64,000 bases of DNA from Nitrosotalea devaniterrae (lineage in GTDB: Archaea; Thermoproteota; Nitrososphaeria; Nitrososphaerales; Nitrosopumilaceae). Below the pieces are notes generated by a model. That model was not told the origin of the DNA. It saw only the letters and a list, made by a program, of their open reading frames with translations, and did not search any database. The DNA lies in the NCBI GenBank assembly GCA_900065925.1, contig LN890280.1, forward strand, positions 488,451 through 552,450. Direction: 5' to 3'. Below are positions 3,182-43,099 of this stretch, in pieces. Position 1 is the stretch's first letter, and each line of letters starts with the position of its first letter. Made by a program: the position numbers and the translations under genes.

Positions 3182-3555
3182 AAAATTGGTGGAAGCTCGT
3201 TCTTCTTATCATGCCCGCCAGAACCGAATCTACAATAGAAACATTGGTCTGATTGCATATACTTGAGTTGCTCAATTTTGATTGCTCCTATCTTGAGTGC
3301 AATCTTTGTTAAAATTCTGTATTTTAGAGGCATGGATGGAATTACCTCTTTGAGATATACGTTGTAATGATCTGGACAAAACTTGAGTGTGATATTGCTT
3401 GGCTCCTTTGAAGTCTGGCTTACGGTCTTTGCAACACCGATCTGCTCTCGTATGTATTCGTGTTTTGGGCATGGACAGTTTCTTCCTCCTGGGTGTTTGT
3501 ATGCTGGAGTATTCTTCCAGTCAAAGCCTGGATATTCCTTTTCAAAGTCGTCCAA
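3178..3555 (-). CDS. Conserved hypothetical Cys-rich protein
   Basis: 125 aa beginning MDDFEKEYPGFDWKNTPAYKHPGG. The Cys/His groups CPCPKH near residue 28, CPDHY near 60 and CFYC near 106 suggest a metal site. I do not recognise the family. It is convergent with the DnaJ-type zinc-finger gene and divergent from the Pro/Ala repeat gene at 3657. Confidence 0.55.
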   Translation of the reverse strand: MDDFEKEYPGFDWKNTPAYKHPGGRNCPCPKHEYIREQIGVAKTVSQTSKEPSNITLKFCPDHYNVYLKEVIPSMPLKYRILTKIALKIGAIKIEQLKYMQSDQCFYCRFGSGGHDKKNELPPIF

Positions 3556-3656: not shown

Positions 3657-4259
3657 ATGTCTAAAGATGCACCAGCAAAAAAAACACGTTCTACTAAAAA
3701 AGTTGCAGAAGGATCTAATACTGCCGAACTAGAGGCAAAGATAGCAGAGCTTGAAGCAAAGCTTGCTAATTTATCATCTCAGGTAAAGCCTGCAGAACAA
3801 AAACCTGCACAGACTTCACCACCACCAGCTCCAAAACCACAACAAAGACCAGCTGCATCAGGTCCAACTCATGGTACACTTCCAGCAGGAATGAAACCAG
3901 CAGAAGCTCCAAAGCCTGAACCAAAACCACAACAAAGACCAGCTGCATCAGGTCCAACTCATGGTACACTTCCAGCAGGAATGAAACCAGCAGAAGCTCC
4001 AAAACCCACAGCACCAGAACCAACCACTAGTGCACATGAACCATTGGCTGGAGAAGTAGCACCTGCATATGCAAAGATCAGCTCAACTGGTTATACTGGT
4101 AACAAGTATTTTGCAACAAGAAAGAGATTATCATATCATCCAGCAGATAAACAGTTCACTGGCAGTTCAACAACTGCAACTGCTCCACAAGTATCTGCAG
4201 AGCCTCCAAAACCAAAATCTACTTTCAGAACTACACTTCCAGCAGGATTCAAGCCTTAA
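3657..4259 (+). CDS. Pro/Ala-rich repeat protein with coiled coil
   Basis: 200 aa. A Lys-rich start is followed by a short heptad stretch (ELEAKIAELEAKLANLSS, residues 23-42) that should form a coiled coil. After that come two 30-residue Pro/Ala repeats containing QQRPAASGPTHGTLPAGMKP, with a third partial LPAGFKP at the very C-terminus. There is no signal peptide or membrane segment, so it is probably cytoplasmic and largely disordered. The molecular role is unknown. It overlaps the convergent bcp gene by four bases. Confidence 0.6.
   Translation: MSKDAPAKKTRSTKKVAEGSNTAELEAKIAELEAKLANLSSQVKPAEQKPAQTSPPPAPKPQQRPAASGPTHGTLPAGMKPAEAPKPEPKPQQRPAASGPTHGTLPAGMKPAEAPKPTAPEPTTSAHEPLAGEVAPAYAKISSTGYTGNKYFATRKRLSYHPADKQFTGSSTTATAPQVSAEPPKPKSTFRTTLPAGFKP
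3831..4003 (+). repeat. Tandem in-frame coding repeat, 90-bp period
   Basis: Bases 3831-3913 and 3921-4003 are near-identical copies (83 bp each) separated by seven bases, giving a 90-bp period and a perfect 30-residue protein repeat. The identity at DNA level suggests a recent duplication or slippage. Confidence 0.9.
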
Positions 4260-6631: not shown

Positions 6632-6706
6632 GGACCCGTAGCACAGCTTGGATAGTGCGGACGCTTGCGGAGCGTCAGGTCGTGGGTTCGAGTCCCCCCG
6701 GGCCCG
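6632..6706 (+). tRNA. tRNA-Arg (anticodon GCG), element attachment site
   Basis: 75 nt cloverleaf without intron or encoded CCA: acceptor GGACCCG/CGGGCCC, D stem GCAC/GUGC, anticodon stem GACGC/GCGUC with loop UUGCGGA (anticodon GCG), T loop UUCGAGU. Two stem positions do not pair: A3-C70 in the acceptor and U50-C64 in the T stem. Both odd bases lie inside the 15-bp att core, so the 3' part may have been supplied by the integrated element. Confidence 0.9.
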
Positions 6707-41404: not shown

Positions 41405-41421
41405 CACTACAATATGTAGTG
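41405..41421. promoter_or_regulatory. Palindrome between protease and wHTH gene
   Basis: CACTAC, five bases, GTAGTG, 27 bases from the protease start. Related words (ACTACATACACTA) continue to 41438. Fits an operator for the divergent winged-helix protein. Confidence 0.55.
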
Positions 41422-41477
41422 CTAGACTACATACACTATGCTTACAATTTTTGGTCTAGTCTAACATCACAATACTG

Positions 41478-41792
41478 TTGAGTCCAATCCAACGGAAAGA
41501 TTTTCTTGTATTTCTCAGGAAGATGTCTAAAAAGGGATTTTATGAGGTTCTTAACTATGTCTATGAGAAAAAGAGTGTTCATTACAATGAGGTACTGAAT
41601 TATGTGCTTGACAAAAAGATTGTTGATAGCAGAGCCTCTGTAACCATAGCCCTCAATGGATTGACAAATCTAGGTCTACTTGAGAGAACTGTTACTAATG
41701 CCAGACCAATTAGAACAAATTATCAGGTTAGTAAGACAGGTCATCAAATAATAAAGAATTTGAGAGATCTTGAAGCTGTTTTTTCCAAATAA
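41478..41792 (+). CDS. Winged-helix transcription regulator
   Basis: 104 aa starting at TTG 41478 (ATG codons downstream give shorter forms). Helices KKGFYEVLNYVYEKKSVHYNEV and SRASVTIALNGLTNLGLLER followed by a wing (PIRTNYQVSKTG) indicate an HTH of the HxlR/MarR-like winged type. It is divergent from the surface protease and probably controls it through the palindrome at 41405. Confidence 0.65.
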   Translation: MSPIQRKDFLVFLRKMSKKGFYEVLNYVYEKKSVHYNEVLNYVLDKKIVDSRASVTIALNGLTNLGLLERTVTNARPIRTNYQVSKTGHQIIKNLRDLEAVFSK

Positions 41793-41840
41793 CCATTGAA
41801 AACAAGTAATAATCTATTCTAACTGAATCTGATCATGCAT

Positions 41841-42064
41841 ATTTTGTTCTCACCTGGGAACAAAATCGCCTTATTTTCTCTACCACCTGGCAAAGAAATG
41901 TAATTTATTTTTGCTCTCAACTGATAGCAAAATATGCCTATTTTTGGTTTCACCTGAAACCAACGCTATTTTTGATCCAAATTTGGGCTAAAAATCAGAC
42001 GCATGCTAGTCTATGTTTTGGACTATGCATCATTTTGTATTTTTGCTTGCAAGTGCAAGCAAAA
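41841..42064 (+). repeat. Regular array of seven inverted repeats (hairpins)
   Basis: Centres lie near 41853, 41886, 41920, 41953, 41981, 42016 and 42052, about 33 bp apart. Hairpins 1-4 share the centre CACCTG or CAACTG (41851, 41884, 41918, 41951) with tetraloop ACCT or AACT. Stems differ in sequence but are self-complementary: TTTTGTTC/GAACAAAA, TTTCT/AGAAA, TTTTGCT/AGCAAAA, TTGGTTTC/GAAACCAA, CCAAA/TTTGG, AGTC/GACT and TTTTGCTTGC/GCAAGCAAAA. Left arms are T-rich and right arms A-rich. No coding role; function unknown. Confidence 0.85.
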
Positions 42065-42083
42065 TTTTTACCCTATTTTATCA

Positions 42084-42350
42084 ATGGCAAAAGATTCCAG
42101 AATTACTCGCAGACACAGTATAATTTCGAATTCAAGCATTGAAATTCAGGCTCAGATTTGCATTTTTTGTAACAAAGAGAAGCGAGGCGGAGCCATTCGT
42201 TACTATAGGATTGCTTGGAAGCTAATTTGGCACTTATCCCACAATCACAAAGATGAAGTGGGATTTGAGCATGAATTAAGGAGACTAAAACAGCTTGCAA
42301 TAGAAAATTCTTGCGTCAATAAATTGGAGGGCGTTAAAATTGTCAAATGA
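42084..42350 (+). CDS. Small C2H2-type zinc-finger protein
   Basis: 88 aa, start set at ATG 42084 (MAKDSRITRRHS); a frame extending upstream would run through the last hairpins. CIFC at residue 31 and HLSHNH at about 54 form a C2H2-like site, as in archaeal virus and plasmid zinc fingers. It overlaps the next gene by 11 bases. Confidence 0.55.
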   Translation: MAKDSRITRRHSIISNSSIEIQAQICIFCNKEKRGGAIRYYRIAWKLIWHLSHNHKDEVGFEHELRRLKQLAIENSCVNKLEGVKIVK

Positions 42351-42540
42351 TATCTCTGTAGTCTGTAGTAGATCAAAGTGTAAAAGACCAGCTGTGGTTT
42401 GTCGTTGGTATGTTAAGATAGATCCATATCCCGTATTAGTTGCCTATCTGTGTTCGGATTGCAAAGATGTTTTTCCATGGAATGAGGATATCATCAAGGA
42501 AGTAACAATGCTTCAACCGTCTGCTAAGGAACTGAAATGA
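42340..42540 (+). CDS. Small zinc-binding protein
   Basis: 66 aa from TTG 42340, overlapping the preceding zinc-finger gene. Cys groups CSRSKC and CSDC suggest a treble-clef-type zinc site. A 25-codon frame (MSFAQFTGVKRST...) follows at 42542. Function unknown; looks mobile-element derived. Confidence 0.5.
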   Translation: MSNDISVVCSRSKCKRPAVVCRWYVKIDPYPVLVAYLCSDCKDVFPWNEDIIKEVTMLQPSAKELK

Positions 42541-42611
42541 CATGTCGTTTGCACAATTCACTGGTGTAAAACGGTCAACTCAACAAAACAAGGAGATTGA
42601 ACGTCCAAAAT

Positions 42612-42748
42612 GTAAGTAAAACTAACAAAAAATGTCAGTTTTGGTTGATCAATGTAAGTTTTTGTCAGTTTTTCGTAGGTTTGCAAAGGGAAACTTACAA
42701 ACTGACAAACTTACACAATTTACTATATACCATACCTATCTTGTCAGT
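42612..42748. repeat. Iteron-like cluster of the 8-mer GTNAGTTT
   Basis: About ten copies: GTAAGT at 42612, GTCAGTTT 42634, GTAAGTTT 42654, GTCAGTTT 42664, GTAGGTTT 42675, inverted AAACTTAC 42691, AAACTGAC 42699 and AAACTTAC 42707 (head to tail at 8 bp), GTCAGTTT 42733 and GTCAGTAG 42741. The opposed blocks also form a long imperfect inverted repeat around GCAAAGGG. Confidence 0.75.
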
Positions 42749-42797
42749 TTGTCAGTAGAAAATGTCATCTTTTTTAAAAATATTTTTCGTTGAAATA

Positions 42798-42821
42798 ACT
42801 CTACTAGAGTGAGACACTCTA
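42798..42821. promoter_or_regulatory. Two overlapping dyads
   Basis: ACTCTA-C-TAGAGT (42798-42810) overlaps TAGAGTG-AGA-CACTCTA (42805-42821), so a central TAGAGT can pair either way. Looks like an operator or switchable hairpin. Confidence 0.5.
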
Positions 42822-43099
42822 ATCTATCTAAGACTTACACGCACGTTGACACGCGCATATTTTCTATCAATTATGTGGTAAACAGTTCTAATTTCAATCA
42901 TCTGTTAAAACATAATCAAATTACTTGATAGTTCTACAGTTGTTTCAAGGACTAATGGATAGTATTGGACTGACTTTGGATGATGGTTAATCTGTTAACC
43001 TTCTAACGATTCTAAAACTATCATTTCTACGTGATTTTTACTGGTTAAAAATGAATATCTGAATATTCTTAATTAATCTCAAACAATAAGGAAATAATC

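Follow-up and report, generated by a model that had tools for sequence, protein, structure and literature searches.

A lineage-specific array of DNA palindromes, possibly operator-like, ahead of a zinc-finger gene pair in "Candidatus Nitrosotalea devanaterra"

"Candidatus Nitrosotalea devanaterra" is an acid-soil archaeon. Its closed genome of 1,805,304 bp (LN890280; PMC4836417) was analysed over a 64-kb stretch (G000:C1:488451-552450, hereafter the window), in which a row of inverted repeats at genome position 530,288 is housed in a 291-bp intergenic gap (41793-42083), with a winged-helix regulator gene on the 5' side and a two-gene zinc-finger operon on the 3' side. A first-pass annotation had described this row as seven consecutive hairpins with a 33-bp period, and had proposed a structured RNA, a protein-binding array or a recombination or replication site, which raises the question of what kind of element the array is. 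The features concerned are, in window coordinates:

41478 to 41792, plus strand: upstream neighbour, putative small winged-helix regulator of 104 aa (HxlR/MarR/Lrs14-like, scores below cut-offs)
41841 to 41866, plus strand: U1, palindrome ATTTTGTTCTC-ACCT-GGGAACAAAAT
41875 to 41898, plus strand: U2, palindrome TTTCTCTACC-ACCT-GGCAAAGAAA, 35.1 bits with the single-unit covariance model R1
41909 to 41932, plus strand: U3, palindrome TTTTGCTCTC-AACT-GATAGCAAAA with one mismatch
41944 to 41963, plus strand: U4, palindrome TTGGTTTC-ACCT-GAAACCAA
41968 to 41995, plus strand: U5, imperfect palindrome ATTTTTGATCCA-AATT-TGGGCTAAAAAT
42003 to 42030, plus strand: U6, bulged hairpin ATGC-TAGTC-(9 nt)-GACTA-T-GCAT, unrelated to the other units, no match to model R1
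42041 to 42064, plus strand: U7, perfect palindrome TTTTGCTTGC-AAGT-GCAAGCAAAA, ending 19 nt 5' of the ZfA ATG
42084 to 42350, plus strand: ZfA, downstream neighbour, 88-aa C2H2-like zinc-finger protein (CxxC...HxxxxH) by family alignment
42340 to 42540, plus strand: ZfB, 66-aa four-cysteine zinc protein, overlapping ZfA

As far as sequence and structure prediction indicate, all three genes next to the array resemble small regulators that bind DNA or metal. The AF2 model of ZfA has a finger core of strand and helix (mean pLDDT 71), and members of the ZfA family turned up in 25 of the 400 order-level genomes searched (E <= 0.01), many of these matches being weak; ZfB has a 66% identical copy at locus L010, likewise paired with ZfA. 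Beyond the zinc pair come an iteron-like region and the genes for an ATP-grasp protein resembling D-Ala-D-Ala ligase and for a STAND-type AAA/TPR protein. The winged-helix gene has, in its promoter region, a palindrome of its own, TATGTAGTGCTAGACTACATA at 41413-41433, which is partly retained in genome G029; it is likely the operator of the winged-helix regulator, and its motif is unlike that of the array. Elsewhere in the window, a perfect 90-bp tandem duplication (3831-4003, 1.9 copies, 100% match) probably lies inside coding sequence.

All seven hairpins lie where the annotation placed them, in DNA that is indeed non-coding, but only six are homologous: U1, U2, U3, U4, U5 and U7 align gap-free about their dyads and have in common the consensus motif TATTTTTGnTnnCAnnTGnnAnCAAAA, which U6, with its bulge and 9-nt loop, lacks. 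The dyad centres of U1 to U4 (41853.5, 41886.5, 41920.5 and 41953.5) reproduce the reported spacings of 33, 34 and 33 bp; this regularity is confined to the first four units and the supposed 33-bp period does not extend over the whole array, since later centres follow at 28, about 34.5 and about 36.5 bp. The loops of the first four units read ACCT, ACCT, AACT and ACCT, as had been noted, the left arms are rich in T and the right ones in A, and the Shine-Dalgarno-like AGGT reported for the minus-strand loops occurs in three of the six related units only. To our knowledge, the array loops belong to no known tetraloop class. The centre is CA-NN-TG in five of the six motif units and AA-NN-TT in U5, so the dyad symmetry extends into the unit centre and the palindrome requires no more than a 2-bp centre, a layout more in keeping with a two-fold-symmetric protein on duplex DNA than with a tetraloop hairpin, which has no need of it.

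The palindrome array is real and far beyond chance; its hairpin count exceeds that of both shuffled sequence and the rest of the genome. The gap contains five non-overlapping near-perfect palindromes with a 4-nt centre (ungapped inverted-repeat score >=7.5), whereas none of 2000 dinucleotide shuffles contained more than two, and elsewhere in the 1.8-Mb genome no independent 230-bp cluster exceeded two; in a genome-wide scan, in which clusters with looser loops were compared too, the array is the strongest hairpin cluster. Folding of both strands, which the annotation had recommended, gave z-scores of -7.46 (plus) and -6.55 (minus) with RNA parameters, and -5.03 with DNA parameters (200 shuffles each, 0 of 200 as good in every case). 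A second strong cluster, at genome 241,581-241,743 (L022:1581-1743), consists of four near-perfect hairpins of 10-13 bp that surround a pilin-like ORF of 67 aa, some 1.4 kb away from a tyrosine recombinase-like gene; its hairpins have unrelated sequences, and the cluster shows no sequence relation to the array.

These fold scores, together with pairing that is retained although unit sequences vary, and with loops that are similar, would be expected of a structured RNA, transcribed either as a spacer of a joint winged-helix/zinc-finger operon or independently, as a small RNA whose hairpins bind a protein or regulate translation; the 291-bp spacer has only a weak promoter, so that transcription might continue into it from the winged-helix gene. 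CsrB/RsmZ-like architecture, i.e., that of regulatory RNAs with tandem hairpins, offers a likeness in its row of small hairpins with similar loops and in the minus-strand AGGT of three array units. However, the array differs from such RNAs in having neither an Rfam match nor a wobble strand bias, and CsrA is not known from archaea. At gathering score, the sole Rfam match in the whole window was a tRNA at 6632-6706. Mismatches read on the plus strand are about equally often G-T (4) and A-C (3), and there is thus no sign of RNA on one strand; in U2, a weaker unit, two mismatches on the plus strand read as two wobbles on the minus strand. The absence of a wobble strand preference is as expected of a duplex-DNA element. 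Since, in addition, no homologue was found in the genomes searched and the upstream gene's orthologues lack the array, we regard the annotation's structured RNA as rather unlikely.

The stems themselves had been described as different yet complementary. Compensatory double changes do occur at 6 of 10 pairs, and 91.7% of cells pair when the units are scored as hairpins, but complementarity is not complete (mismatches in U2, U3 and U5). Covariation amounts to 0.56, compared with 0.22+/-0.06 in shuffled and at most 0.13 in slid alignments, a figure affected by the fact that units were partly picked for their pairing, which makes an arm permutation test fairer than the covariation score. Arms agree at 9.5 of 11 positions inside one unit, as against 7.1 of 11 between units, and the true pairing of arms is the best of all 720; arms thus match their own partner best, and each unit's self-complementarity is itself maintained. 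Such per-unit symmetry exceeds what a fixed-consensus operator needs, and fits recognition of a hairpin or cruciform, RNA stems, or homogenisation of arms by template switching. The last of these is a documented mutational process (PMC8604942, PMC7202029), and could have produced the array neutrally, if tandem duplication of a short palindrome was followed by template-switch (quasi-palindrome) repair that homogenised the arms during replication, with neither selection nor function. The array's restriction to one genome, the unit-by-unit homogenisation and the equal quality of both strands agree with this, but the 1.8-Mb genome holds no second array of the kind, divergence has erased neither the unit motif (TATTTTTG, CAnnTG) nor the spacing of 33 bp, and the array lies in a promoter region, so that a purely neutral origin seems improbable, if by no means far-fetched.

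Structure was said to be conserved while sequence was not; this holds across the units of the one array, which is itself absent from all relatives searched. By blastn against 151 family genomes, the array matched the window alone, the rest being noise, and phage records gave no match. Covariance models, another of the checks recommended, found no counterpart array with the one-unit model R1 in 37 genus genomes (those matches outside the array that were read were single and in apparent coding sequence), and only the window with the four-hairpin model R2 in 121 family genomes. None of the zinc-finger homologue loci checked, from a search across 400 order-level genomes, has a comparable array. 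Judged by these comparisons, the array is specific to the host lineage among available genomes, at one genome per species. The annotation had made its reading depend on presence in close relatives and on an excess over shuffled sequence; the relatives searched lack the array, and the excess is pronounced.

Several known classes of repeat can be set aside. A CRISPR array, a pattern that the annotation, too, had not recognised (nor had it an integron attC or a tRNA), does not agree with units that are only 71-82% alike over 28 nt, arranged nearly head-to-tail with short linkers. REP/BIME elements resemble the array as clustered, imperfect, intergenic palindromes, but the array occupies a single locus, without dispersed copies in the genome, and the genome lacks a Y1 transposase; for IS200/IS605 or REP, PF01797 is absent from the genome, while 5 of 14 control genomes matched. 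A role as chromosomal origin, one form of the suggested replication site, is unlikely, as the best AAA_22 match, taken as orc1/cdc6, lies at genome 634-1041, about 530 kb off.

Two congeneric arrangements place the array more precisely. Orthologues of the winged-helix gene in G029 and G013 have no array 3' of them, and in G029 a related secreted-protease gene (matrixin-like) lies upstream of the winged-helix gene while the zinc pair is absent; G021 has the zinc pair, the ATP-grasp gene and the STAND gene in conserved order, but neither the winged-helix gene nor the array. As G029 and G021 each keep one side only, the array sits at the junction of two gene blocks. This synteny break, and the iteron-like, origin-like region after the zinc pair (42597-42900), might point to a hairpin or cruciform of a mobile or integrated element (a recombination end, a single-strand origin or a partition centromere) that remained between the blocks. 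Against this, the genome contains no Y1/IS200-IS605 transposase, no direct repeats, integrase or ParA are seen beside the array, and a degenerate motif scan of IMG/VR gave eight scattered single sites and no arrays; neither ZfA nor winged-helix proteins were found in viral contigs. We consider a mobile-element remnant quite unlikely.

In the iteron-like region, repeats of TGTAAGTTT/TGTCAGTTT, in both orientations, surround a TATA-rich core, after which comes a stretch that is conserved, GAGACACTCTAAT...TAAGACTTACACGCACGTTGACACGCGC. At G021:C282:1003-1273 (L138) there is a match of 68%, with other repeat words (TGTGGGTTT), and in L010, L007 and L134 the zinc pair is flanked by visually similar regions whose words differ again. 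The conserved core occurs only once in the genome, and the region could be a promoter or an origin with changing specificity. Directly 3' of the zinc pair at the syntenic locus of the congener G021 (L134 ~3210-3350, G021:C244), a 27-bp repeat, CTGGAAATTGTATGGTTTGTAACTGCA, occurs in five direct copies. A non-coding stretch, TAAAGACTCAYTRGGGGAA...TCAGTTAG, is common to L134 ~4140-4175 and L006 ~1177-1212, upstream of the zinc pair in G021 and downstream on the opposite strand in G098; it is absent from the host genome.

The reading that we favour, though only tentatively and short of an even chance, is that of a lineage-specific DNA palindrome array, probably operator-like, which controls the zinc-finger pair. 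A palindromic unit of about 33 bp would have been tandemly multiplied between the winged-helix gene and the zinc-finger pair, giving a cluster of dyad-symmetric candidate binding sites for a small DNA-binding protein encoded alongside, with either zinc-finger protein or the winged-helix protein as the likeliest binder. The likeness to tandem palindromic operator or partition-site arrays lies in several dyad sites directly 5' of a small operon of putative DNA-binding proteins, with one unit overlapping the weakly predicted promoter; the difference lies in arms that vary by unit yet remain self-complementary, and in the lack of ParA or a known centromere-binding protein nearby. A TATA PWM trained on the host genome's own upstream regions reflects leaderless spacing (motif start about 32 nt 5' of the start codon); it found no good leaderless box for ZfA, but a candidate further upstream:

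42032 to 42043, plus strand: predicted weak TATA-like element ATTTTGTATTTT (PWM score 4.1, near the 75th percentile among promoter scores)

By leaderless spacing, a start site may tentatively be predicted near 42064, on the final base of U7. Given these two weak predictions, U7 would be in the classic position of a repressor site, where its occupancy, between TATA box and start, could block transcription of the zinc-finger operon (autoregulation), while U1-U5 upstream might add cooperative or looping occupancy; we infer binder, cooperativity, repression and promoter position alike.

Upstream regions of ZfA homologues differ among genomes, and hint, short of proof, that palindromic operators precede genes of this family. 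In G019, a perfect 28-bp palindrome (12-bp arms, 4-nt centre) lies at -54 to -27, with a score reached by 0 of 932 upstream regions in the host genome, and two weaker palindromes, about 30 bp apart, lie 5' of the homologue in G098 (L010). Several observations count against the operator reading, however. Folding of the L010 upstream region does not surpass that of shuffles (z -1.26), and no such palindromes lie upstream of the homologues in G021 and G090. The unit motif was not found elsewhere in the host genome outside coding sequence, and there is therefore no regulon. Spacings of 33, 34, 33, 28 and 71 bp are not strictly helical. Finally, a plain operator does not require complementarity at degenerate positions, and the arms co-vary beyond a fixed consensus. 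A new thaumarchaeal cis-element, in which the adjacent zinc-finger pair recognises the self-complementarity of each unit (as a cruciform or single-strand hairpin) and not a fixed sequence, would account for such arms, but we hold it to be very unlikely.

The main surprise of the array, its stem covariation, has ordinary explanations. If the array is neutral, it would be a clear archaeal case of arm-homogenised palindromes imitating RNA covariation, and a caution against reading paralogous repeats as structural evidence. If the adjacent zinc-finger proteins bind it, a small zinc-finger family of ammonia-oxidising archaea, so far uncharacterised, would gain a defined DNA target.
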